From positions 1,140,501 through 1,204,500 of the forward strand of contig NZ_CP023548.1 of NCBI RefSeq assembly GCF_002407205.1: a stretch of 64,000 nucleotides of DNA. Reading direction: 5' to 3'. Source of the stretch: Rhodobacter sp. CZR27 (lineage in GTDB: Bacteria > Pseudomonadota > Alphaproteobacteria > Rhodobacterales > Rhodobacteraceae). Position numbers and translations under genes: made by a program. Position 1 is the stretch's first letter. The number at the start of each line of letters is the position of its first letter. Below are positions 21,252-34,530 of this stretch, piece after piece. The notes under the pieces were generated by a model. That model worked only from the letters and a program-made list of their open reading frames with translations, was not told the DNA's origin and did no database searches.

Positions 21252-22247
21252 TCATCGTGTCCAGAGCCCTTCGCGCCGCAGGATGTGGCGGATCGCCTGC
21301 TCGCGCCTCGGCAGGTCGTCGCGGTCGAACAGCGCGCGGGCCTTCCGGCCCTTTCCCTGGTAGATGAAGTGGCGGAAGGGCTCGTGCGCCTTCAGCACCT
21401 TCTTCACCCGGTTCGGGGCCGCGACGCGATGGAGCGTCTCGACCACCCGGTCTCTTTCGCGGGCGTAAAGCAGGGGCATCAGGCGCCAGTGGCAGGTGAG
21501 GTCGCCGTCGAGGCCGGCAAGCTCCGGCCCCGGGCGGCCGCCGCCCAGTCCGTGGATGACGAGGGGCAGGGCGATCTGGTCGAGCCAGGGGTAGAGCGGC
21601 TGGCAGACAAGCGCCTCCGGCGGATCGTCGCGGATCGCCCGGGCGATCTCGAGGAACCGCCGGCCGAAGCGGTGGGGGCTTTCATGGAAGAACCAGCCCG
21701 CGTTGAAGTAAAGGTAGCGGCGCCAGTAGTCGTCAGGCTGGGACAGGTCGAGGCTCGAGGGGAAGTCGAGGCCGAACCGGTCATAGAGGGCCTTCCACAG
21801 CCCCGTCCGGTCCGGGCCGTAAATCTCGGGCTGCGGCCAGGTGCCCTCGCAGCGCAGGGATGCGGATGGCCGCGAGAAATCGAAGGGCACAGCCGAAAGC
21901 GGCCCCGTGACCAGCGTGTCGCTGTCGAGGAACAGGAAGGGCTCGTCCGGCAGCGCGAGAAGCGCCTCGATCTTGTTGCCGTTCGGATAGCTCTCGCCGA
22001 AGGTGGTGTTCGTGAAGGGCAGGAATTGCGCTCCAAGGCTTTCGAGCAGATCCCGCACCGCCGGGTCATCGATCCCGGGATCGCCCGACCAGAGCGGCCC
22101 GAACTGCGGCTCGGCGATGAAGAGCGTGCCAGCGAAGCCTGGGTCGCAGGCGCGCAGCGAGGCCGCGAGCAGGACGGTCTCGTACTGCAGCCGCCCTTTC
22201 TGCGCGATGGCGAGGATATTGAAGCGCGAAGGACCGGCGGAGGCCAT
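21252..22247 (-). CDS. Putative GT-A type glycosyltransferase
   Basis: 331-aa cytoplasmic protein starting MASAGPSRFNILAIAQKGRL. The FLFLDSDTLVTGPL segment (about residues 104-117) holds a DxD motif of the kind that coordinates the sugar-nucleotide metal ion. It is followed by YLYFNAGWFFHESPHRFGRR and YPWLDQIALPLVIHGLGGG, the N-A-G and late L-D-Q patterns seen in GT8-like enzymes. Donor and acceptor are unknown. The frame continues upstream to 22373, but ATG 22247 starts directly before the first beta strand. It lies 42 bp upstream of the lipoprotein gene, and 167 bp from the end of the che operon. Confidence 0.65.
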   Translation of the reverse strand: MASAGPSRFNILAIAQKGRLQYETVLLAASLRACDPGFAGTLFIAEPQFGPLWSGDPGIDDPAVRDLLESLGAQFLPFTNTTFGESYPNGNKIEALLALPDEPFLFLDSDTLVTGPLSAVPFDFSRPSASLRCEGTWPQPEIYGPDRTGLWKALYDRFGLDFPSSLDLSQPDDYWRRYLYFNAGWFFHESPHRFGRRFLEIARAIRDDPPEALVCQPLYPWLDQIALPLVIHGLGGGRPGPELAGLDGDLTCHWRLMPLLYARERDRVVETLHRVAAPNRVKKVLKAHEPFRHFIYQGKGRKARALFDRDDLPRREQAIRHILRREGLWTR

Positions 22248-22376
22248 GGATGATCCGGACTGAAGTGTCGCGACCTTAGGTCGAAGCGCGTCCGTCATCC
22301 AGAGGCATGTCGGTGACACCTGTAGCGGCATCGCGGCTGCTGGCGCGGGCATGGGGACGGGCGAAGCGGTCATGAA

Positions 22377-22414: not shown

Positions 22415-22762
22415 TCAGAAGAAGTCCGCGCTGCCAGCATCCACTTCTACGGGCATCAGTCCCCTCAGCGCGCCGGCGAGGCTCTTCTGGTTGACGCCGG
22501 CCACGGCTTCGCCCGGATCGATGCGGCAGTCTCCGTCAACGGCCAGCGCGAGCCCGTCGACATAGGCTGCAACCCCGGCCAGCGACTGAACAAGATTGTC
22601 CAGCTTCTGCAACGTGCCGCCCTCCCCGGGGCCGGGTGCGGACCGGCTGATGGAGCGGCCCACGGCATCCTCGATCTCGTCGCCCATTGCCGACATCCGG
22701 TGCAACTGGGCGGCAAGTCCCTCCAGCACCGAGCGGAGCGGAACGGTCGCCGGCACCGTCAC
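22415..22762 (-). CDS. Small che-operon protein with QxxDxxxQ motif, CheT-like candidate phosphatase
   Basis: 115-aa, probably helical protein encoded last in the che operon. GTG 22762 overlaps the cheY stop (GTGA), so it is coupled to cheY. Residues 52-59 read QKLDNLVQ, giving D55 and Q59 in the DxxxQ arrangement used by CheZ and by Sinorhizobium CheT to dephosphorylate CheY. The Gly/Pro-rich loop at 42-50 separates two amphipathic helices, and the protein ends in ADFF, an acidic-aromatic tail. Sinorhizobium cheT is likewise a short gene at the end of its che operon. Phosphatase activity is inferred from motif and position; overall similarity to CheZ is not evident. Confidence 0.55.
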   Translation of the reverse strand: MTVPATVPLRSVLEGLAAQLHRMSAMGDEIEDAVGRSISRSAPGPGEGGTLQKLDNLVQSLAGVAAYVDGLALAVDGDCRIDPGEAVAGVNQKSLAGALRGLMPVEVDAGSADFF

Positions 22763-23145
22763 AGCGCACCCACCACGGCCTGGATGGCGCGGCGCATCCC
22801 GTCGGTGGTGAACGGCTTCTTGAGGAAGTTGTTCATCCCGAGCGCCTGCCCCTTCTCGATGATGTCGCGGCTGGCGGTGCCGCTGACGAGGATGAATCCC
22901 ATGCGCTGGGTCGTCTTGTTCTCGCGGATGCCCTTGAGCAGCCCCAGCCCGTCGAGGCCGGGCATGTTATAGTCCGAAATCACCAGATGGACCGGGTTCG
23001 CCGCCAGCTGGCGCAGCGCGCTCGCGCCGTCCTTGCAGAAGTCGATCTTCTTGATACCCAGTTCCTCCAGCGCCTGGATGATCAGCCCGCGGCTGGTGGA
23101 CATGTCGTCCACCACCATGATCCGTATGCTGTCCCTCAGTGCCAT
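22759..23145 (-). CDS. cheY: Chemotaxis response regulator CheY (downstream copy)
   Basis: 128-aa single receiver domain. The acidic pair is in IMVVDDMSTSRG (D13, D14), the phospho-acceptor is D58 in ISDYNMPGLDG, the switch Ser/Thr lies in LVSGTAS, and K110 is in FLKKPF. The [14 protein letters not shown] start and the MSTSR loop are typical of alphaproteobacterial CheY that binds the flagellar switch. The frame is open far upstream through cheR, but ATG 23145 overlaps the cheR stop by one base (TGATG). The small QxxDxxxQ gene follows with a 4-bp overlap. Confidence 0.93.
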   Translation of the reverse strand: MALRDSIRIMVVDDMSTSRGLIIQALEELGIKKIDFCKDGASALRQLAANPVHLVISDYNMPGLDGLGLLKGIRENKTTQRMGFILVSGTASRDIIEKGQALGMNNFLKKPFTTDGMRRAIQAVVGAL

Positions 23146-24041
23146 CAAGTTTCTCCTTTCCCCTGTCCGCCGGGGTCCCGCGAACCGCGCAGGCGGAATG
23201 ATGTCATGCCAACGGTTTCGAATTGGTGTCTGACCGAGGGCGAGAGCCGCTCGGAGTGGCCGATGAAGAGATATCCGCCCGGTGAGAGCGTGCCGGCGAA
23301 GCCGCGCCAGATCCTGTCCTGGGTGGCCGCGTCGAAATAGATCGCCACGTTGCGGCAGAAGATGACGTCGAATGGCCCGTTGACCGGCCAGGGCTTCACC
23401 AGATTCATCGGCTTGAATGTGACGAGCGAGCGGAGCGACGGGCCGACCTCGCGGCTGCCCTGTGCATCCGGCGCGCCGAAGAAGGTCTCGCGCGCCTCTT
23501 CCGGCAGCCCGGACAGCACCGCCTCGGTGAACCGGCCCTCGCGCGCCATGGCGAGGATCTGGACGTCGATGTCGGTGGCAAGGATCTTGAGGTCGTACGA
23601 CGCCGCCTGCGGACAGAGCCGCAGGATGGTGATCGCCATGCTGTAGGGCTCCTCGCCGGACGAACAGCCGGCCGACCACAGGCGCACGCGCGCGCCGCGC
23701 CGGGCGGCAGCGAGGATCGGGGGCAGCACCGAGTCCGCCAGCAGGTCGAAGTGATGCTCCTCGCGGAAGAAGCGCGTCGTGTTCGTCGTCATGCTCGAGA
23801 CGAACATCGAGCGCTCCTCGCCGGCGTCCGGCTGCGAGAGCAGGTCGATGTAGGCCCCGAAGCTGTCGATCGACAGCTGGCGCAGCCGCTTCACGAGCCT
23901 TGCATAGACAAGGGGTTCCTTGGCGTCGGGCATCGCGAGGCCTGCCTCGGCATGCGCCAGCTGCGCAAGCCGGTGGAAGTCGTCGGGCGACAGGTGCAGA
24001 TCGCGCTCTGCGGTGAGGGAACGGGGTGCGCCCTGGCTCAT
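23145..24041 (-). CDS. cheR: Chemotaxis protein methyltransferase CheR
   Basis: 298-aa S-adenosylmethionine-dependent methyltransferase that methylates glutamates of chemoreceptors. An N-terminal helical CheR domain ([20 protein letters not shown]) precedes the catalytic domain. The latter contains [15 protein letters not shown], the SAM-binding [18 protein letters not shown] (about residues 119-136), [14 protein letters not shown] (about 222-235) and the closing [12 protein letters not shown]. Start ATG 24041 overlaps the cheW stop (ATGA). No cheB demethylase is present in this cluster, so demethylation must come from elsewhere or not occur. Confidence 0.95.
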
Positions 24042-24496
24042 GACGCCCTCCCACCCGTTGGCAGGACGGCCTCCATGTCGATGAGGCGCAGCATTCGCTG
24101 CTCGATCGCGATCACGCCGCGCACGAAGGTCTGGGTGGCCTCCGATCCTACCCGCGGCGTCGCCTGGACGGCAGAGGGCGGCACGGTCAGGATGTCAGAG
24201 ACGGCATCGACCAGAAGGCCCAGGACCTGCGTGTCGACCACCGTGATGATGATGACGTGTCTCGCCTCTGGCTGGAGCGGGCCGAGTGCCAGCCGTTCCG
24301 CGAGGTTGATGATCGGCACGACCGCGCCGCGGAGGTTGATCACGCCCATCACATAGGACGGCGCATGGGGCAGCACCGTCGTGGGCGACCAGCTGCGGAT
24401 CTCGCGCACCGCACGGATGTCGAGGCAGAACTCCTGCGATCCGATGCGGAAGGCGACGACCTCGCGCAGGTCGGATGCGGCTCGTGGTGCGGCCAT
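24038..24496 (-). CDS. cheW: Chemotaxis adaptor CheW
   Basis: 152-aa SH3-like adaptor linking CheA to receptors. It reads [40 protein letters not shown] and [19 protein letters not shown], the conserved CheW strands including the NLRG turn that contacts CheA P5. It begins 3 bp after cheA and overlaps cheR by 4 bp. Confidence 0.95.
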
Positions 24497-24499
24497 TCG

Positions 24500-26572
24500 T
24501 CATGCCTCCGGCAAGGCGAAGGGATCGGCGGACCCGAGGTCCACCACCTCTTCGGGGTCGATGATGAGGGCGATGCGCCCATCGCCGAGGATGGTGGCGG
24601 CGGCGATGCCCGGCATCTTGCCATAGCCGTTCTCCAGGCCCTTGATCACCACTTGCCGCTGGTCGTGGATCGTGTCCACCACCAGCGCGCACAGTTTCTG
24701 CCGGCCGGTCTCGACCAGGAGCAGCACGCTGTCGTGGTAGGATCGCACGGCCTCGCGGTAGCCGAAGATGGCGCCGCAATCGATGATGGGAACGAAGCTT
24801 CCGCGGATCGCCACCACCTGATCGCCCGATCCGAGGGAATGAACATCCGCGGGCCGCGGTCGCAACGTCTCGACGATGGCCGCCACCGGAACCACCATGG
24901 TCTGTCCGGCGACATCGACGACCATCCCGTCGAGTACGGCGAGGGTGAGCGGCAGGCTGATCGTGAAGGTGGTCCCCCGGCCGGGGTGCGAGGAGATGGT
25001 CACGCGTCCGCCGAGCGCCTGGATCGCACTCTTCACCACGTCCATGCCGACCCCGCGACCCGACAGGTCGGACACGACCGCCGATGTCGAGAAGCCGGGC
25101 AGGAATAGGAGCGCATCGATCTCCTCCTCGACCAGTTGCGCATCCTCCGGCACCAGACCCTTGGACCGCGCGATCTCGAGAACCCGCGGCCGGTTGATGC
25201 CGCCGCCATCGTCCCGGACTTCGATGATCACCCGACCCGAGCGATGGGCTGCCGAGAGCGTGATGACCCCGGCATCGGGCTTGCCGGTCGCCCGCCGCCT
25301 TTCGGCCGGCTCGATGCCGTGATCCACCGCGTTGCGGATCATGTGGGTCAGAGGATCGGCGAGCCGTTCGATGACGGTCTTGTCGACCTCGGTGCCGTCG
25401 CCCTCGGTGACGAGACGCACCTGCTTCCCGGCGATGTCCCCCGCCTCCCGCGCGATGCGGGACATGCGCTGGAAGAGCGGCTTGATCGCCTGCGCACGGA
25501 TGGCCATCACGCTTTCCTGGATCTCGCGCGCGAGGCTCTTGAAATCGTCAAGGCGGCTTCGAACCGGTGATCTCGGCGCAACGCCTTCGTCCTGCACGCA
25601 CTGGGACAGCATCGCCTGGTTGATGACGAGTTCGCCGACGATGTTGATCAGCCGATCGACCCGTTCGAGTTCCACCCGAACGGTCGCGCGGGGTGCCGAT
25701 GCCCGGTTCTCGTCGATCGAGCCTGGCCGCTGTTCGACCGGCCGAACGGGTTCGGCGGCCACCGCCGCCTCGGCTGGCCCTGGTTCCGGTTCGGGCAAGG
25801 GGAGGGGCGCAACCACGGGGCGGACATCCAGCCGGCAAAGATCCTCGACGAACTCGAAGACCTCGTCGATCTGATGCTCGGGTTCGTCGGTGATCAGCGT
25901 CAGGCGCCAGTCCAGCCAGCTGTCCTGCCAGTCGAGCACGTCGAAATCGGGCAGGCGCGAACGATCAAGCTGCACCTCGAGTTGCCCGAGATCCGCCAGA
26001 ACGCGGAAAAGAACGCTTGGATCATTCCCGCAGGCATAGAGCGCCCGGGACGGGCTGAACTCGATCGCGAACACTCCGCCCGTCGCCGCGGCGGGTACCC
26101 CGTCCGCCGGGACGGGATCGAAGTCCAGAGCCATCGGCACGAAGCCGAAGTCCTCGGCGTCCGCATCATTGGTCTCCTCCACTTCCCCCGCGGCGGCGGC
26201 GAGCTGACCTGCGAGGATCGTCGCATTCTCGGAACCGGATGCGTCGCCCATGCGTGCGGCCTGCAGCAGATCCGAGAGCTGGTCCGCCGAGCGATGCAGC
26301 AAGGCCATTAGCGGCGGATCCGTCTGGATCCGGCCACTGCGCAACGCGTCGAGCGTGGTCTCGAACTGGTGCGCGAAGCGGACCAGCGCGTCCAGCTTGA
26401 AGGCGCCGGCCCCCCCCTTGATCGAGTGCACGGCGCGGAAGACCGCGTTCACGGTCTCCGGATCGGGGCCGGCGTCGAGGCTCTCGTCGATCCGGTCCAG
26501 CCCGTCGTTCAGCGCCTCGACCAGGTCTTCGCACTCGACGAAGAAGGCGCCCCTGATGTCGCTCTGATCCAT
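24500..26572 (-). CDS. cheA: Chemotaxis histidine kinase CheA
   Basis: 690-aa kinase with the full CheA domain order. P1/Hpt has the phospho-His at H49 in VHSIKGGAGAF. Residues ~165-255 form a poorly conserved P2-like region. P3 dimerisation helices (RVELERVDRLINIVGELV) start near 295. P4 has NAVDHGIEP (N box) and GRGVGMDVV (G box), and the C-terminal P5 CheW-like domain starts near 555 (LPLTLAVLDGMVVDVAGQTM). All catalytic motifs appear intact. It starts 8 bp after a cheY gene and is followed immediately by cheW and cheR, so the complete excitation core is in one transcript. Confidence 0.95.
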   Translation of the reverse strand: MDQSDIRGAFFVECEDLVEALNDGLDRIDESLDAGPDPETVNAVFRAVHSIKGGAGAFKLDALVRFAHQFETTLDALRSGRIQTDPPLMALLHRSADQLSDLLQAARMGDASGSENATILAGQLAAAAGEVEETNDADAEDFGFVPMALDFDPVPADGVPAAATGGVFAIEFSPSRALYACGNDPSVLFRVLADLGQLEVQLDRSRLPDFDVLDWQDSWLDWRLTLITDEPEHQIDEVFEFVEDLCRLDVRPVVAPLPLPEPEPGPAEAAVAAEPVRPVEQRPGSIDENRASAPRATVRVELERVDRLINIVGELVINQAMLSQCVQDEGVAPRSPVRSRLDDFKSLAREIQESVMAIRAQAIKPLFQRMSRIAREAGDIAGKQVRLVTEGDGTEVDKTVIERLADPLTHMIRNAVDHGIEPAERRRATGKPDAGVITLSAAHRSGRVIIEVRDDGGGINRPRVLEIARSKGLVPEDAQLVEEEIDALLFLPGFSTSAVVSDLSGRGVGMDVVKSAIQALGGRVTISSHPGRGTTFTISLPLTLAVLDGMVVDVAGQTMVVPVAAIVETLRPRPADVHSLGSGDQVVAIRGSFVPIIDCGAIFGYREAVRSYHDSVLLLVETGRQKLCALVVDTIHDQRQVVIKGLENGYGKMPGIAAATILGDGRIALIIDPEEVVDLGSADPFALPEA

Positions 26573-26580
26573 CGGCGGCC

Positions 26581-26949
26581 TCAGGCGGCGGTGACACGGC
26601 GAAGGGCCGAGACGAGCTTCGCCTCGTCGAACGGCTTGACGATCCAGGCTGTTGCGCCCGCCTCCCTAGCGCGGGCCTTGAGTTCGGCGGCGCTCTCGGT
26701 CGTCAGGACGATGATGGGAAGGGCCGAATGCTCCGGCATGTCCCGCACCGCCTTGATGAAGCCGAAGCCGTCTAGGCGCGGCATGTTGATGTCGGTAATG
26801 ACCGCATCCGGCACGCGATCCGCGAGCTTCTCGAGCCCATCGAGGCCGTCGATCGCCAGATGCACGTCGAAGCCTGCCTGGACGAGGGCCTCCCGGAGAA
26901 GTTCCCGGATGGTGCGGGAGTCGTCTATTGCCAGAACGGTCAGCGGCAT
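26581..26949 (-). CDS. cheY: Chemotaxis response regulator CheY (upstream of cheA)
   Basis: 122-aa receiver domain beginning MPLTVLAIDDSRTIREL, with acidic pair D9/D10, phospho-acceptor D53 in ITDINMPRLDG, switch Thr in VLTTESA and Lys in WIVKPFDE. The open frame extends to 27060, but ATG 26949 gives the receiver start; it overlaps the end of the STAS gene by 10 bp. In Sinorhizobium the CheY in this position (CheY1, next to CheS) acts as a phosphate sink, and the same role is plausible here. Confidence 0.93.
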   Translation of the reverse strand: MPLTVLAIDDSRTIRELLREALVQAGFDVHLAIDGLDGLEKLADRVPDAVITDINMPRLDGFGFIKAVRDMPEHSALPIIVLTTESAAELKARAREAGATAWIVKPFDEAKLVSALRRVTAA

Positions 26950-27224
26950 GGCTCTTGATCCTCGTGAAGCTCGGCCGGGTCTGCACCCAGTCGGATGATG
27001 TCGTCGGCGAAGGCGGGCGAGCGTGGCTCGCAGGCGAAACGGTGGCCGGCAGAGCGCCATCTGGCCGCGGCGGCCAGCAGTATCTGCAGCGCCAGTCCCC
27101 CCACGAAGGTGACCTTTCCGGCGTCGAGGCGGATGTCGCCGGCGGGGGCGCCCTTGAGTGCGGCATACAGATTGCGCGCCGCCTGATGATCGAGACGCGC
27201 AGGTAGCTCGACGAGGTGGCTCAT
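26940..27224 (-). CDS. STAS-domain protein, CheS-like
   Basis: 94-aa protein of the STAS fold: ELPARLDHQAARNLYAALKG, then VTFVGGLALQILLAAAARW in the position of the signature loop and helix. The Ser usually phosphorylated in anti-anti-sigma STAS proteins (DSSGL-type) is absent, replaced by VGG. It sits immediately upstream of cheY-cheA and overlaps cheY by 10 bp, the same place and size as Sinorhizobium CheS. CheS binds CheA and speeds CheY1 dephosphorylation. The CheS assignment is by position, size and fold, not by close sequence match. Confidence 0.65.
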   Translation of the reverse strand: MSHLVELPARLDHQAARNLYAALKGAPAGDIRLDAGKVTFVGGLALQILLAAAARWRSAGHRFACEPRSPAFADDIIRLGADPAELHEDQEPCR

Positions 27225-27260: not shown

Positions 27261-27812
27261 TCAGAAGAAGGTGACATCGCCGGCACCTCCCTGGATGCGG
27301 ATCTGCGGGCTCTCCACGGGCAGGTTCTCGTGGGCGGCCAGAAACATCTGCTGGGCTCGTCCCGTCGTGGGCCAGAAGCGGATGCGCCGGGCCCGCGTGC
27401 CACCGAGGCTTTGTCCCGTGCAGAGGATCGCCTCCTTCGCGAGGTACTGCAGTGCGAACTCGGCATTTGCCTGTCCGATGGAGCCGAGCCGGTCGCTCAT
27501 CATCGCGCCGCCGAAGATCTTTGCCTCAAGGCGGTTGCGGCTCGCGCCAAGCTTGAGAACGGCGTTGATCAGCAACTCCATCGCGTGAAGCCCGTAGCGG
27601 AGTTGGTGGCTGTTCTCGAAGCCCGCATAGGGAAGCAGGAAGTGGTTCATTCCGCCGACGGCGGCAACCGGATCGCATAGGCAGGTGCAGACGCATGATC
27701 CGAGGATCGTCGTCAGCATCTGGTCCGACGAGGCGGATGCCTCGCAAGCGCCCTGAAGCACGTGAAGCGTCCGCACCGATGCGCCGACCTCACGGATGGT
27801 TACGGAGCTCAT
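27261..27812 (-). CDS. cheD: Chemoreceptor glutamine deamidase CheD
   Basis: 183-aa deamidase acting on receptor glutamines and, in some species, modulated by CheY-P phosphatases. The catalytic pair lies in TTILGSCVCTCLCDPVAAVG (Cys about 40) and GGMNHFLLP (His about 57); KIFGGAMM and the acidic-aromatic tail GDVTFF are also typical. I chose ATG 27812; a GTG three codons upstream (27821) is the alternative. It lies between an MCP gene and the CheS-like gene. With cheB missing from the locus, CheD is the only receptor-amidating enzyme here besides CheR. Confidence 0.93.
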   Translation of the reverse strand: MSSVTIREVGASVRTLHVLQGACEASASSDQMLTTILGSCVCTCLCDPVAAVGGMNHFLLPYAGFENSHQLRYGLHAMELLINAVLKLGASRNRLEAKIFGGAMMSDRLGSIGQANAEFALQYLAKEAILCTGQSLGGTRARRIRFWPTTGRAQQMFLAAHENLPVESPQIRIQGGAGDVTFF

Positions 27813-27866
27813 GACAGGCACCAGATCGGCGGCCCCGAGCGAATGTCACAGCGGTTCGTGGACATG

Positions 27867-30287
27867 TCAGAAGTCCTCCCAGCCGGTTTCGGCTGCTGGC
27901 GATGCCGCGGTGCGGGCGCTTCCGGGGGCGGAGGAGGCGTGCTGTCGCGCCCGGAAGCTGACGACGCGGTCCCGCTCTGGTGCCGCCGGCTCAATCCGGA
28001 AGTGCTGGACCGTCTCGAAGAGCGATGTCGCGTCCTGCGTAAGCGCCTCGCTGGCCGCCGTGGCCTCCTCGAGACGTGCCGCATTCTGCTGCGTGGACTG
28101 GTCGAGGTTGTTGACGGCACAGTTGATCTCCGCCAGCCCCGCGGACTGTTGACGGGAGGAAACGGCGATGGCGGAGACGAGGGTGGAGATCTCGGACACC
28201 GAACTCACGATCTGCTTGAGCGCCTCGCCCGTCTTTCCGACCAGGTCGACGCCACGCCGCACCTGGTTTCCGCTCTTCAGGATGAGGTCGGTGATTTCCC
28301 GCGCCGCTTCGGACGAGCGCTGGGCAAGGGCACGGACTTCGGATGCAACGACCGCAAAACCTCGTCCTGCGTCTCCGGCGCGGGCCGCTTCCACACCTGC
28401 ATTGAGGGCGAGAAGGTTGGTCTGGAAGGCGATGTCGTCGATGACCTTCACGATGGACGTGATCTTCTCGGAAGAGGCGGCGATCATGTCCATGGCGGCA
28501 ACGGTTTCGACGACCACGTGGCCACTCTGCTCGGCGTTTGCCTTTGCATCGGCCACCACGCGATCTGCCTCGGCCGCGCCTTCGGCCGCTGCGCGAACCG
28601 AAACCGTCAGCCCATCAAGCGCCGCGGCGGTCTCTTCAAGTGTTGCGGCAGTGCTTTCCGTCCTCTCGGCGAGCGATTGTGCCGTTGAGCTGATGTCATG
28701 AGCTTCGTTTCGGATGCTCTCCGCTGCCGAGGAGATCTCGTGCACGATGCCGGCCAGATTCTCGAATGTTCGGTTCAACTCGATCCGCAAGTTCTCGAAG
28801 GAGCCTGTCAGTGGTTTCGCGATGCGGTGGGAGAGGTTGCCGTTGCCCACCTGCTGCAGCGCGGTCCGGATCGTATTGATGGCCTCGTCCTGCTCGGCGT
28901 TCCCATGGACGTCATGCAGCGGCTCGCGCTTGACCTGCGGCGCCGGGTCGCTCGCGAACAGGATGAACCCGCCGAGGGGTCTGGGGATGAGGTGCAGCCA
29001 GATCCGGCCCTGTTCGGCCTCGCCCTCGGGTCCGCACCAACGATAGGCTGCGCCCTTGTTTCTTGCCTCGTTCAGGAACGCGGACACCTGGGCCGTGTCG
29101 CCGATCAGCGCGGTGAGCGGGAAGGAGCCGCGACCGATGTCGAAGACGGACCCTTGGGCAGCCTGTTCCAGAGCGCCGCTTTCGTCCAGTTCTGCGCAGC
29201 CTTTCGTCGAAACCATGGCTTCCAGAAGGTCATGATCCTGCTGTGCCAGCGTTCGGTCGGTCAGGATGAGGAAAGTGCCCTCGGAGGCCGGATCGAGCTG
29301 GAGGGCATGTGCCTCGATGTGTCGGCTGCCGAGCGTGAGTGCCAGAGGTCCGCCACGGTGATCGTCGCACAGCTTGCGCAATGCAGGCTGGATCATCGCC
29401 ACATCTCGGCCCTCCGGTTCATCAGCACCAGCCTCGGACAGAAGGGTTCTGGCAGCGGAGTTCGCAGCAGCGATACGCCCATCGGGCCGCAGGAGGATGA
29501 AGGCCAGACTCGATCGGCCGAACAGCTGCGTGAGGCTCGCTGCATCCCGGCACCTCGTCCGCATTTCAAGGAGCCTTGTATGCACGGCCTCAAGATCACG
29601 GGCGATCAACCCGAACTCGCCTCTTCGGCTCGCAAGGGGAAGTCCCTCGAACGGACCGTCCGATCGAAGTCTGCGGATTGCCACTGCTGTCTCGATAATC
29701 GGTCGCGCGAGCCGGCGAACAAGGAAGATGGCGATAGCCATGGTGAAGAGGGCTGCGCCTGCAAGCCCGGCCATGGCTTTCGGGGACAAGATCCATGGCA
29801 TCGGCACCGACGAGAAGTCCAGCGCTATGACCCCGGCCGGTCCGTGGTCGTCATCCCGGCTGATCGGGATCGCCACGGCGGTGCGGTCAGCTCCGCGCGT
29901 TACGGTCTGCAGGGCCAAGGCTTGGCGGGCAAGGTCCAGGAGAGGTCCTGCCAGCCGGTCAGGCGCGCCGAGCGAAGCGACGGGGCGACCTGTAGCATCG
30001 AGGGCGAGGGCCGAAACGGCACCCTCGGAAGATGTCTCGGCTATAGAGGAGAAGAAATCCTCGAGCCGGCGACTGTCGCGGAAGGCGAGGGCGGCTCGGC
30101 CTTGGCGGGCCACGACATTTGACATCGCATCCGCATGCTGTTCGGCCAGCACTGCGGCTGTCTCACGTGCGGCAAGCAGGGTCGCCACGCCGCCGGCCAG
30201 TGTCATCAGCAGCAGGCAGGGGATGACGATGAGCAACAACCTGCTCGCATGACGCTGAACGAGCGGCGGCTTTTCGATCGGGATCAT
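27867..30287 (-). CDS. Transmembrane methyl-accepting chemotaxis protein with PAS domain and xWxxF tail
   Basis: 806-aa chemoreceptor. TM1 is near residues 15-35 ([17 protein letters not shown]), a ~125-residue periplasmic region follows, and TM2 ([20 protein letters not shown]) leads into a HAMP segment. A PAS-like region ([20 protein letters not shown], about 260-280) and a long methyl-accepting coiled coil come next, with the hairpin tip [23 protein letters not shown]. The last five residues are GWEDF, matching the xWxxF pentapeptide that tethers CheR/CheB on high-abundance enteric receptors. The start ATG 30287 precedes TM1; the frame continues upstream without membrane features. The ligand is unknown. 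Confidence 0.93.
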
Positions 30288-30330
30288 CTTGGCGTTCCAT
30301 GTCAGTGCCGAGCCGGAAGAAGCGACCGGG

Positions 30331-30354
30331 GGCTTGTCGTGCGGCACGCAAGCC
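30331..30354. other. Intercistronic hairpin between two receptor-type genes
   Basis: GGCTTG-t-CGTG / CACG-CAAGCC (30331-30354): 10 paired bases with one bulge and a 3-nt loop, in the 122-bp gap between the 606-aa gene and the next MCP gene. No U-tract follows on the minus strand, so mRNA stabilisation or partial attenuation is more likely than full termination. Confidence 0.45.
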
Positions 30355-30409
30355 GCGCCTGTCGACTCTAGGGTGGTGGGGTTTAGCAAACGTGAAAGCT
30401 GCCCTGCTT

Positions 30410-32230
30410 TCAGAACAGGAAGTCGCAGATGTCTTCGGCTGTCTGCGCTGTGGTGTCTCCGCCCTCTTCTGTTGCGGCTTCCGGGCAGATGTCCCGCATG
30501 ATCGCGTCATGGACGAGGCGCTCCGCGGCCATGGTGTATTGTGATCGGATGGCAGCCATGACCTGTGCGGCACCAGGGCCGGCTTCGCCGCTTCCAAGTC
30601 GGCCCGACCAGCGGTCGAGAGCGGGCGCGATGGACAGAAGGTCCACGAATGCAGCGGAGTGACCGTCGAGCGCGGCAATTCCCGCGGCAACGTCGCGTTC
30701 CGCCATCCGGCGCTCACGTTCCACCGTCGTGCCGACGGTCAGCACGCTGGTCTCGATGCGGGATAGCACCTGGAAGACGCGCTCTCCCGCGAGTGTCAGC
30801 TCGTCAAGGTCCGTCCGGAAGGCGCCCGAAAGCTCGCGCGCGGTGGCGCCGGCCTCCTCTCCCATGGTCGAGAGAGCCGCTGTGATCTGGCCCAACCGCT
30901 CGGCCGACGTGGCCGCAAGTTCACGCAGCTGCATGGAAATCTCGCGAAGGGCGAGTGCTTCGTCGCCCAGCTGCACACAGGCGATGACGGCATTCAGGCC
31001 GATCATTCCCATGCGCTCCTCGACGCCAGACATGCGGTCGAGGACCTGAAGCAGGTTGGCGAGGCCCTCCGACAGGCCCTCGGCGACGACGACAAGGCGA
31101 GCCTGGGCCCGGCGGCATTCTGAAAGGATATCCTGTAGCCTCTGAAGGTGATGCTTCAGGTTGTGCCGGGGCGCCGACGCGATTCTGGCGCTGATCCGGC
31201 CGATCTCGGCAGTCTCCTGACCGGAATCCCGAAGTGCCGAGCGGGCGGTGAAGATGGCTGCGGCATGTCGTTCATGTGCGTCCCGGAGTTGGCCTGCGGC
31301 AAGGGCCAGCGCCAGGTGAGCGATCATCGCGTCGTCCGCATCGGGCGTGTTGGCCACACAGAGAAAGGCCGCCACGTGTTCCAGTCGCTGGCGGGTCGTG
31401 TCGCCGATCTGCAGTGAGAGGACCGCCGTGGTGATCGCCTGGCGGAAGTCCTGCCCGTGCCTGACGAGGGCGCTGCCCTCGGCCGTGGCGCGGGTCAGTT
31501 CGACCTCGAAGGCGGCCATGTCGAGGCGCAGGCCGGACAGGGCCGGACCCAGATGGCGGCTCAGAAGATGCGACAGCGCTTCGGCTTCCACGGCTGCCAC
31601 CTGCAGGCCGCGACCCATGCCCTCGACCGCATCGGTGATCTGCCCGATGATGTTGCTCGCCTCCATCACCTGCGAGGTGGCGGCGCTGGTGAAGACATCG
31701 AGTCCGGCATTCTGTTCGGTGAGAGAGGCAACGGTCACCCGCGCATTGAGTGCCACGATCGACATGGTGCGGATGACCTGGCGCATGGCGCCGAGATCTG
31801 CCTGCAGCGTGTCGGAGCTTGCGGCCAAGGCCATGATCCGGTCGAAGAGGGGGTGGCCCTTTGCCGCGAAGGCCGTGGCCTTGCCCTCCAGTTCGGCCGC
31901 CTCCGCTGCGGCTGCGGCGAACTCGCCGGCCTCCGCCAGCGCGGAGAGTTCCGAAAGCGGGGCCGACAGGCGGTCGAACCGGTCGATCGCCTGCTCGAGG
32001 CTCGAGCCGGCGCGGAGGAATGCCCGTTCGGTCGCGCACGCAAGCGCAGAGATGCGGCTCGCGACGCGGCGCAGGGCGCTTGCGGAGACACGGCCGGCCC
32101 CGGGTGCCCTGCTGCTTGCCTCATCGCGGGACGGGACCACAGGGGTGCTGGCCCGGGCAGGAGCGAAGGAGGCTTCGCTCGATGCCGCCTCCTGCGTTGC
32201 CGGACCGCCGATCGGATTCGGAAGTGCCAT
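30410..32230 (-). CDS. Soluble MCP-like protein with CheZ-like QxxDxxxQ motif and CheY-binding-type tail
   Basis: 606-aa, almost entirely helical cytoplasmic protein inside the che operon. Two degenerate methyl-accepting hairpin tips are visible: [18 protein letters not shown] (about residues 156-173) and a later [20 protein letters not shown], each recalling the [17 protein letters not shown] signature. Between them, residues 273-281 read LQIGDTTRQ, placing Q274, D277 and Q281 in the QxxDxxxQ spacing of CheZ-type phosphatases. The extreme C-terminus AEDICDFLF resembles the CheY-binding C-terminal peptide of CheZ. There is no membrane segment or HAMP. ATG 32230 starts a low-complexity ~45-residue lead. 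I infer a receptor-associated phosphatase or scaffold; this is untested. Confidence 0.6.
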
Positions 32231-32378: not shown

Positions 32379-34070
32379 TCAGGCGGCGTGCTCGGGCAGG
32401 GCGCGGCGCTGGAAGGCGGCATCGAGATCGTCGCTTCCCGAGCCCATGTCGAAGGCGAAGCCGCCTTTCGGCAGACGTCCCGCGGCAGGGGCGGATTTCG
32501 GCCGAAGCCGGGGTTGGGTCTTCGCCGGAGCCGCGGCCGCCGCGGGTGCCGGATCGGCAAGCGGCCGGTGTGCGGCGGTTTCGGCGACCTGGAAGAAGCT
32601 GATGGCCTTCTGCAACTGTTCGGCCTGCTCTGCGAGGTGCCCGGCCGTCGCGGAAAGCTGTTCCGATGCGGTGCTGTTGACCTGCGTGACCTTGTCGAGC
32701 TGCTGGATTGCCGAGTTCACCTGACTTGCGCCCGCCGACTGTTCCTGCGACGAGGTCGAGATCTCCAGAACCAGTCGCGCGGTTTCCTCGATATCCGGCA
32801 CGAGCCGGCTCAGCCGGTCCCCGGCCGCGCGGGCGGCATCGACGGTGGTGCCGGACAGGACCGAGATCTCGCTGGCGGCGGCCTGGCTGCGCTCGGCCAG
32901 TTTGCGGACTTCGGAGGCCACGACCGCGAAGCCGCGACCATGCTCGCCCGCGCGGGCCGCTTCCACTGCGGCGTTGAGGGCCAGAAGATCGGTCTGCCGG
33001 GCAATTTCCTGAACTACCCCGATCTTTTCCGAGATGGTCCGCACCGCCTCGACCGCTTCGAGCACGGTGGCGCCGCTTTCGCGGGCGTCGCGCGCCGCGC
33101 TGCGGGCCTTGGCCTCCGTATCGACGGCATTCTGCGCCGCCTGCTTGATGCTCGAGGTCATCTCTTCCATAGAGGACGAGGCCTGGAGGGTCGAGCTGGC
33201 CTGTTCGGAGGCGCCCTGGCTCAACTGTTCGGCCGTGGTCGACATCTCCTCGGCGCCCTCGGCCACGCTGCGGGAAGAGGTCGCCACGTCCGCGACCACG
33301 GTGCGCAGCTTGTCGACCATGCGGTTCAGCGCGCCCAGCAGATCGGTGATCTCGTCATTGCCGCGCAATTCCTCGGTGTGGGACAGATCGCCTGCGGCGA
33401 CGCGTTCCGAAAGGATCAGGGCGCGCTTCAGCCCTCGGGACAGGGTGATCAGGATCCAGCTTGCGGCGGCCAGGACCAGGACGAGGTTGGCCGCGAACGT
33501 GGCGATCACGGTCGTCCGACCGCGCGCCTGTTCCTGCCGGGCGGCCTCGGACGCGGCGGCGAGATCGTCGCCCCGGGACTTGATGAGGAAGGTCAGACGC
33601 TTCTCCATCTCGAGCCAGTCGTTGCGGCCGTCCGTCACGACGATCTTGAAAGCCTCGTAGCCCAGTCCCATCCGGGCCATGTCGAGCGCCTTGTGCGCGA
33701 CCTTGTCGAGTCCCTTCTTCGCCGTCGCGAACTCCTCCAGCGGGGCCCGGCCCGCTGCGGACGAGATCGCGTAGAGGTCATTGTAGGCTCTCTCTGTCTC
33801 CGCCTCGGAATGTTTCAGGCGTTCCTCGATCAGGGAGCGCTCTTCCTCGGTGCGGGAAAGAAGGAAGTTCCGGACCTCGCGCTGCACCTTGAGCTGATGC
33901 TCGGTCATTTCGTGCACGAGATTGAGCTGGGTGGTCTTGTTCTGCACGATGTCGTCGAGCGAGTCGCGGATGCGGCCGAGGTCAAACAGTGCGAAGAGCT
34001 GGCCGGCACTGGATATCAGCAGGACGGCGAGGAAGGCGGCGGCCAGTTTCAGCTTGATGGACAGTCTCAT
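32379..34070 (-). CDS. Methyl-accepting chemotaxis protein with four-helix-bundle sensor domain
   Basis: 563-aa chemoreceptor. TM1 is residues ~9-28 ([19 protein letters not shown]). A ~155-residue periplasmic four-helix-bundle (4HB_MCP) region follows with [22 protein letters not shown]2 is [19 protein letters not shown] (about 188-206), then HAMP and a signalling domain with hairpin tip [20 protein letters not shown]. The C-terminal ~60 residues are Ala/Pro-rich and lack a CheR/CheB pentapeptide, unlike the second receptor of the operon. It lies between cheY (34162) and the 606-aa gene. The ligand is unknown. Confidence 0.93.
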
Positions 34071-34161: not shown

Positions 34162-34530
34162 TCAGGCGCCTGCCACCTTCCTGACGACGGCAAGCAGTTG
34201 CGCCTGGTCGAACGGCTTGATCATCCAGCCGATGGCGCCGGCCTCCTTCGCCTGGGCCTTCAGCGTGTCCTGGGACTCGGTGGAGAGGAAGACGATGGGC
34301 ACGCCCTTGCCCTCGGGCCGGGTGCGGAACGCGCGGATGAAGCCGATGCCGTCTAGGCGCGGCATGTTCTGGTCGGTCAGGATTGCGTCGAAGCGCTGGG
34401 CGGTTGCCTTGTCCAGTGCGTCCTGTCCGTCGACGGCCTCGACGACGGTATATCCCGCGCCCGCGAGCGTGAGGCGCACCATCTGCCGGACAGAGGGGGA
34501 ATCGTCCACTGCGAGGATTGTCTTGCTCAT
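34162..34530 (-). CDS. cheY: Chemotaxis response regulator CheY (operon-leading copy)
   Basis: 122-aa receiver domain. It begins MSKTILAVDDSPSVRQMVRL with acidic pair D9/D10, phospho-acceptor D53 in LTDQNMPRLDG, switch residues in FLSTESQ and the Lys in WMIKPFDQ. It closely parallels the cheY at 26581 in length, phospho-site position and in being preceded by a STAS gene (ATGA overlap at 34527-34530). This suggests duplication of a STAS-cheY pair within the operon. Whether it acts on the motor or as a phosphate sink cannot be told. Confidence 0.93.
   Translation of the reverse strand: MSKTILAVDDSPSVRQMVRLTLAGAGYTVVEAVDGQDALDKATAQRFDAILTDQNMPRLDGIGFIRAFRTRPEGKGVPIVFLSTESQDTLKAQAKEAGAIGWMIKPFDQAQLLAVVRKVAGA

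Follow-up and report, generated by a model that had tools for sequence, protein, structure and literature searches.

The window, i.e. the whole 64,000 nt stretch of the Rhodobacter sp. CZR27 genome analysed here, contains a che operon on the minus strand. In the direction of transcription the gene order is cheY, MCP, tlpS, MCP, cheD, cheY, cheA, cheW, cheR, cheY and a 115-aa ORF:

34162..34530, minus strand: cheY at the cheY5 position (PF00072)
32379..34070, minus strand: MCP upstream of tlpS (PF00015, HAMP, 4HB_MCP_1)
30410..32230, minus strand: 606-aa TlpS-type protein (no Pfam match at E<=1; AlphaFold2 mean pLDDT 89.1)
27867..30389, minus strand: MCP downstream of tlpS (PF00015)
27261..27821, minus strand: cheD (PF03975)
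26581..27060, minus strand: cheY at the cheY1 position (PF00072)
24500..26572, minus strand: cheA
24038..24496, minus strand: cheW
23145..24041, minus strand: cheR (PF01739)
22759..23145, minus strand: cheY at the cheY2 position (PF00072)
22415..22762, minus strand: 115-aa CheT-like ORF directly after cheY2, with LDNLVQ (DxxxQ) and the tail ADFF

For R. sphaeroides, cheOp1 is given as mcpA, mcpB and tlpS together with cheD, cheX, cheW1, cheR1, cheY1, cheY2 and cheY5 (PMC7277832; this and all other papers are cited from excerpts), and Tlps are described as receptors without transmembrane regions (PMC2829493). Three receptor-like genes are present here, and only the 606-aa ORF lacks both PF00015 and a membrane helix; it therefore takes the tlpS position. 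We thus infer the name TlpS for this protein, in a cheOp1 of the Cereibacter/Rhodobacter type. Among named proteins, those of Cereibacter are its best relatives. The three CheYs listed in a preliminary description of the locus are all present. Its statement that no cheZ lies here is confirmed as well, and a CheZ match is absent from the entire genome.

The 115-aa ORF holds DxxxQ within LQKLDNLVQSL. Its sole NCBIfam match at E<=0.1 is CheT (NF047973, E=0.019, 15 bits compared to a cut-off of 200). Judged by its sequence it is possibly a second phosphatase, and it may be the gene given as cheX in the cheOp1 of PMC7277832. A match to PF13690 (CheX) is not found in the genome. Behind the che operon lies a 373-aa ORF (21252-22373, minus strand) containing LDSDTL and having no Pfam match at E<=0.01, which by its general likeness we take to be perhaps a glycosyltransferase.

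The 606 aa of TlpS are counted from the ATG at 32230, which is preceded by AGGAACTGAA and lies outside the MCP gene ending at 32379. The start MALPN is common to TlpS and its close relatives P0002-P0004. ORF, length, the pattern Q274-x-x-D277-x-x-x-Q281, two degenerate receptor-tip segments and the C-terminus AEDICDFLF are all as the preliminary description had reported. The relevant segments are as follows, with counts referring to an alignment of 79 family members:

32006..32029, minus strand: residues 68-75, E..F...G segment (E68, F71 and G75 nearly invariant)
31712..31765, minus strand: residues 156-173, first degenerate receptor tip (LNAR, N162; N in 64/79)
31376..31411, minus strand: residues 274-285, candidate phosphatase active-site helix, the top-conserved 12-residue window (D277 codon 31400-31402, Q281 codon 31388-31390)
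30956..31006, minus strand: residues 409-425, second degenerate receptor tip (N413 and G422 invariant, 79/79)
30509..30538, minus strand: residues 565-574, YTMxxERxxH box (R571 invariant; Y565, T566, E570 and H574 nearly so)
30413..30439, minus strand: residues 598-606, AEDICDFLF, CheZ-like putative CheY-binding tail (tail type in 73/79)

The highest 19-residue Kyte-Doolittle mean is 1.45; therefore no membrane helix is indicated, as had been claimed, and hydropathy rules out a reading as membrane receptor. AlphaFold2 predicts a helix at residues 275-293, a helix break exactly at Q274 and a turn at 169-174. By helix register, segment 68-75 would lie at the same bundle end as residues 274-285. 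The MCP signalling domain (PF00015) is not matched by the window protein at E<=1; 48 of the 79 family members match it at E<=0.1 (best 5.8e-9). Likewise no match is obtained for CheZ (PF04344 / NF041271; Pfam at E<=1, NCBIfam at E<=1), for CheT (NF047973, NCBIfam) or for CheC/CheX (PF04509, PF13690, Pfam). A sequence search against solved structures yielded two matches (E 0.15 and 1.6), which we take as chance. The best Foldseek match is an MCP model (E 6.4e-4) with poor superposition. Since unrelated helical bundles lead the VIA-align rows, this fold search settles little; CheZ is absent among the rows listed by either program.

The main alignment comprises the window protein, 10 of 16 database relatives and 68 of 91 locus rows. 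Partial, over-long and near-duplicate rows were dropped by eye before the count but none for its motif, and QxxDxxxQR is carried by every row displayed. Most members are rather distant, with 72 of the 78 others sharing 18-36% identity with the window protein. In a first alignment of 14 rows Q274, G276, D277, T279, R280, Q281, R282, L283 and E284 were invariant; with 79 rows Q274, G276, D277, R280, Q281, R282, N413, G422 and R571 are. The preliminary description had named free variation of the three motif residues or of the tail among orthologues as what would speak against it. Q274, D277 and Q281 do not vary in any of the 79 rows, and 73 of them keep the tail in kind, ending in F or L and having at least two acidic residues among the last nine. 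Residues 274-285 form the most conserved 12-residue window, above the receptor tips. The conserved residues fall into two sets, the tips (N162, N413, G422) on the one hand and E68-G75, 274-285 and 565-574 on the other.

In a protein of such composition QxxDxxxQ is expected 0.05 times by chance. The pattern was chosen after being seen, hence its conservation is the real test, and the invariance rules out a chance motif. A genome scan for the family gave 170 confirmed stretches. Among the best 80 loci, to which the set was then reduced, all 80 family ORFs carry [LM]QxxDxxxQR. Two patterns were used for the scan, one of which (GD[TAS]TRQRLE) could select for the motif while the other is based on the tips. 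All 16 ORFs matching the tip-based pattern, which is independent of the motif pattern, keep the motif, so that in this subset selection bias is discarded as its source. In farther relatives (P0018, P0122-P0124, L160) G276, R280 or R282 change while Q, D and Q are kept, and in an alignment of 11 with distant relatives Q, D, Q, E and H are invariant in 11/11.

The genome of strain CZR27 encodes a paralogue (G000:C1:2753191-2754813) that is preceded by cheR and then a cheB. It matches TlpS with E=2.8e-32 and 27% identity over residues 55-585 and shares its boxes. Two family members are found in each of five genomes of the genus. In one of these (G004) the gene corresponding to the paralogue is matched exactly by the published R. 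sphaeroides tlpC primers, taken from PMC3358273, one at its start codon and the other immediately behind its stop codon, and it has the length of 580 aa given for TlpC in PMC3964821. Primer match and length fix the paralogue as TlpC, and therefore TlpS and TlpC are one family. TlpC is described as non-essential (PMC3358273), which speaks against an indispensable role.

The best 80 of the 170 loci stem from Rhodobacterales, Devosia, Bradyrhizobium, Rhodomicrobium, Novosphingobium and others. Four of them are cheOp1-type Cereibacter loci. A cheR match lies upstream on the same strand in 73 of the other 76; of the remaining three, L048 and L091 start less than 1.4 kb from the gene, and in L098 the 6.8 kb upstream contain no che match. 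The gene between cheR and the family gene is a cheB with receiver domain in all three loci checked. The usual place of the family in Alphaproteobacteria is a che operon, behind cheR-cheB. A tree of 79 members groups the seven TlpS-type rows into a single clade (support 98), whose sister is the cheOp2-type gene of Rhodobacter sp. SW2, with the Cereibacter TlpCs elsewhere; this tree was built by a quick method and has long branches, and four of the seven TlpS rows are labelled by similarity alone, without context. One locus (L089) shows two kinds of che sets close together: in the first the TlpC-like gene comes after MCPs, cheW, cheR and a receiver gene, and the second, from ~4 kb further, reads cheY-cheA-cheW-cheR-cheY-cheD. 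A plasmid collection gave one partial TlpS match, a hypothetical protein of Methylosinus.

The motif was compared to CheZ. As a class, CheZ shows AxxFQ directly before DxxxQ (PMC7750401). Alphaproteobacterial CheZs mostly read FQD[LI]TGQR, and many end like SQDDIDALF. The TlpS family consensus is [ASG]-[LM]-Q-x-G-D-x-[T]-R-Q-R with few exceptions. AxxFQ before D is absent in the window protein, which has S-L-Q-I-G instead; within the family A is found at D-5 in 36/79 and G at D-1 in 79/79, and FQ before D occurs only in distant relatives such as P0019. The CheZ likeness proposed beforehand consequently stands for the DxxxQ part, which is located on the predicted helix 275-293 and invariant in 79/79, as expected for a CheZ-type site, and falls for the Q at D-3, since CheZ conserves FQ at D-2/D-1. 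When the motif segment from 13 alphaproteobacterial CheZs is slid along the family profile, the register that places their D on D277 ranks first among 552-565 registers for each of the four window sizes tried. All-against-all window pairs are less clean than this one-sided slide: the exact register ranks 84, 159, 47 and 6 among 123,640, 120,528, 115,920 and 125,995 pairs, and the same diagonal shifted by 4 or 2 is on top for 15- and 12-column windows but not for those of 19 and 25 columns.

Some distant relatives are closer to CheZ. Compared to FQDITGQR in CheZ, P0019 reads FQDITRQR and P0122-P0124 read QFHDITRQQ, the segment of P0122 being SMQFHDITRQQIEHV. P0122 exceeds the Pfam MCPsignal cut-off (38.2 vs 34.6 bits) and at the same time matches CheZ below cut-off (Pfam E=0.004, NCBIfam E=0.0068); an MCP from outside the family scan, L176, matches Pfam CheZ at E=0.0017, also below cut-off. 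By ungapped count, the D of these two proteins falls on position 130-131 of the CheZ Pfam profile (P0122: 130), that of true CheZ on ~129. Such matches are noisy, as the control genome of B. subtilis yields a below-cut-off CheZ match too, and for P0122 and L176 coiled-coil families unrelated in name (Rx_N, Apolipoprotein) score about like CheZ. Against a profile built from the 13 CheZs, with 500 shuffles per protein that do not keep coiled-coil periodicity, P0122 and P0019 beat 500 shuffles, L171 498, L176 and TlpS 495, TlpC (L007) 493, L055 407 and L161 15. For TlpS and TlpC the matches to this profile are weak and the best stretch is not the motif. Hhalign of the entire family with CheZ is not significant (probability 0.9%) and leaves the motifs unaligned, and CheZ is absent among the 25 families listed for the 79 members in Pfam or NCBIfam. 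Direct CheZ homology by profile is hence rejected, with TlpS, TlpC, L055 and L161 lacking a match at the motif, and the claim rests on motif register, bridging relatives and neighbourhood.

Similar features are found beyond this family. A phylum-wide search revealed MCPs of ~390-430 aa with canonical tips, QFQDRxxQ, a [YF][TA][MT] box and the tail [DE][IVL]TFF; family sizes are not read from its tallies or from those of another search, since in many rows other MCPs align only in part, across their tips. When the C-terminal 112 aa of L161, one of the MCPs with QFQDRxxQ, served as module query, 38 of 398 genomes gave matches at E<=0.001, and 30 loci were fetched, one of them the query's own place. 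D and Q are kept in 28 of these; L180 and L188, in which both are absent, look spurious and were rejected as members. By coordinates cheY is directly downstream in 19/30, with a cheY frame that overlaps further in L172 and L174, and a CheA match is present in 20/30. The module loci come from few families and therefore these counts are not independent. G552, G609 and G634 have two module matches each. The plasmid collection contains no match for the module.

Ten of the module loci (L165-L168, L170, L172-L176) encode McpA-like MCPs with the tail [DE][IVL]TFF beside cheY, and all five tested exceed the PF00015 cut-off. The Pfam CheZ profile finds three module-bearing ORFs (383, 406 and 408 aa) below cut-off; L176 is confirmed as an MCP. 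One MCP locus reads module-MCP, cheY, cheA, MCP, cheW, cheR, cheD and a receiver protein at the place of cheB, which fits the F7 gene order with a McpA-like receptor in front (PMC7184735). According to the same source, McpA C-termini are strikingly conserved with unclear role, none has the CheR-binding pentapeptide, that of P. aeruginosa McpA has valine at the second position of this motif, and in stages 1-2 cheZ is included only in F6 clusters. In S. oneidensis, deletion of mcpA leaves swimming unchanged and overproduction leads to more swimming in a CheA3-dependent manner (PMC9855816); neither result decides the phosphatase question.

Five stand-alone proteins of 189-201 aa (L169, L171, L185, L186, L191) carry FQFYD[KR]L[ST]QRL.H, a Y[TS][ML].EER-like box and the tail DDIELF. 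They have no convincing Pfam or NCBIfam name and are candidates for free phosphatases of the module type. Family f188 (L177, L178, L182-L184, L187, L189, L190, L192, L194) consists of long proteins, some with acidic repeats, that carry [LF]QNIDRV[SAN]QR at the C-terminus and whose genes are followed directly by cheY and then by cheA. The four f188 genomes checked gave no CheZ match; a regular CheZ is also encoded in all ten McpA-type genomes and in both stand-alone genomes searched. In addition, family f197 (L179 and L181, open frames with 578 and 595 aa) shows QFDDITSQR.EHVI and has tails that end in FELF. By appearance, these two are TlpC-type proteins from outside Alphaproteobacteria.

Which phosphatases do the hosts have? 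CheZ is found in 8 of 34 family-bearing genomes searched, and the other 26, some of them drafts, give no CheZ match. CheZ, CheC and CheX are without match in five Cereibacter genomes, one of which is 83% complete in the case of CheC/CheX. According to PMC2829493, R. sphaeroides lacks a CheZ homologue, and CheA3 is given as phosphatase for CheY6-P only (PMC6829392, PMC10924463). CheT of S. meliloti and A. fabrum is a DXXXQ phosphatase without evident CheZ homology, acting on one of two CheY-Ps (PMC12654446). The missing CheZ/CheC/CheX would leave a gap for the family to fill, shared with CheA3 and the CheT-like ORF. In the literature searched, which covers few subscription papers, we found no phosphatase role for TlpC, TlpS or McpA; this holds for the excerpts of PMC2829493, PMC7277832, PMC12654446, PMC6829392, PMC3964821, PMC10924463, PMC3358273, PMC9430884, PMC7184735, PMC9855816, PMC7534058, PMC10579534 and PMC7750401.

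Based on its anatomy, its invariant site, its place in a che operon and the CheZ-like motifs of distant relatives, TlpS is best explained as a soluble receptor-like scaffold that probably (roughly 0.6, from sequence comparison) bears a CheZ-type CheY-P phosphatase site. The preliminary description had suggested a soluble array protein that also dephosphorylates CheY, or a relic receptor turned phosphatase scaffold; its observation holds, its interpretation is supported in part, and it overlooked both the TlpS/TlpC type of the protein and the CheT-like ORF in the operon. The single chain would form two receptor-type helical hairpins, with both degenerate tips at the array end of the bundle and the CheZ-type catalytic helix at the opposite end. 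In E. coli CheZ, D143 and Q147 are the catalytic residues acting on CheY-P. D277 and Q281 would act like them, Q281 placing the water that attacks the phosphoryl-aspartate of CheY-P and D277 helping to hold the active site. The acidic, Phe-ending tail may recruit CheY-P, presumably of a CheY of the same system, and the tips may dock in the receptor array.

Helix and tail may also bind CheY-P (or parts of CheA) without catalysis, making TlpS and TlpC a CheY-docking scaffold or sink in the array. The conservation of the receptor tips would agree with that, as does TlpC being a known component of the cytoplasmic cluster, with CheA3, CheW4 and TlpC itself as two-hybrid partners and with a looser cluster after its loss (PMC6829392). 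However, exactly the catalytic D and Q of CheZ are kept even where G276, R280 or R282 change, which is more than docking seems to need, and we consider this reading rather unlikely. A shade less likely still, the DxxxQ segment is a coiled-coil kink with convergent CheZ likeness, in a protein that is only a degenerate receptor organising the cluster. The predicted helix break at Q274 lies exactly where such a kink would be, and neither hhalign nor the missing CheZ profile match at the TlpS motif argues for a relationship; but a kink does not readily account for a segment that beats the receptor tips in window conservation and recurs in the 189-201-aa stand-alone proteins as well as in canonical MCPs, each time with a similar Y-box and an acidic tail ending in Phe. 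It is quite improbable that TlpS is a phosphatase mainly for the receiver domain of CheB instead of CheY. This is suggested by the cheOp2-type loci, where cheR precedes the gene, as does such a cheB in each of the three loci checked. Against it, the che ORFs scanned around the cheOp1 copy in the window include no cheB, and the related module outside Alphaproteobacteria adjoins cheY.

The phosphatase reading of TlpS singles out two residues, D277 and Q281, and its prediction is a definite one. By this reading, bacteria in which no CheZ is found may have their CheY signal ended by receptor-like proteins; if it is right, signal termination shifts into such proteins, and the conserved tail noted in 2020 gains an explanation. 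More tentatively, and at somewhat less than even odds, CheY systems that lack their own CheZ would generally rely on phosphatases tethered to receptors, with one CheZ-like module throughout. This module of Q-x-x-D-x-x-x-Q helix, Y-box and acidic Phe-ending tail would then be shared by TlpC/TlpS in Alphaproteobacteria, F7 McpA-like receptors, the f188 proteins before cheY and the ~190-aa stand-alone proteins. If so, the 'odd chemoreceptors' of the literature would be signal terminators in or beside arrays.

Compared to known systems, TlpS is like CheZ in its D-x-T-x-Q-R core, its acidic-hydrophobic C-terminal tail and in being helical. It differs by its size (606 aa vs 165-331 aa in the 13 CheZs aligned), by IG instead of FQ before D, by its receptor tips and by the lack of a CheZ profile match. 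CheT shares DXXXQ with TlpS but is small (the NCBIfam model has 130 positions) and without receptor parts. TlpC of R. sphaeroides cheOp2 belongs to the same family, and the genome of strain CZR27 carries both; TlpC follows cheR-cheB in cheOp2, whereas TlpS of the window is flanked by two MCP genes in cheOp1. McpA/CttP-like receptors, attributed by gene order to gammaproteobacterial F7 systems, share the DxxxQ helix, the [YF][TA][MT] box and the tail [DE][IVL]TFF, and their genes adjoin cheY and cheA. Unlike TlpS they have a canonical MCP tip, one hairpin per chain and N-terminal hydrophobic segments, the latter judged by eye in two of them.
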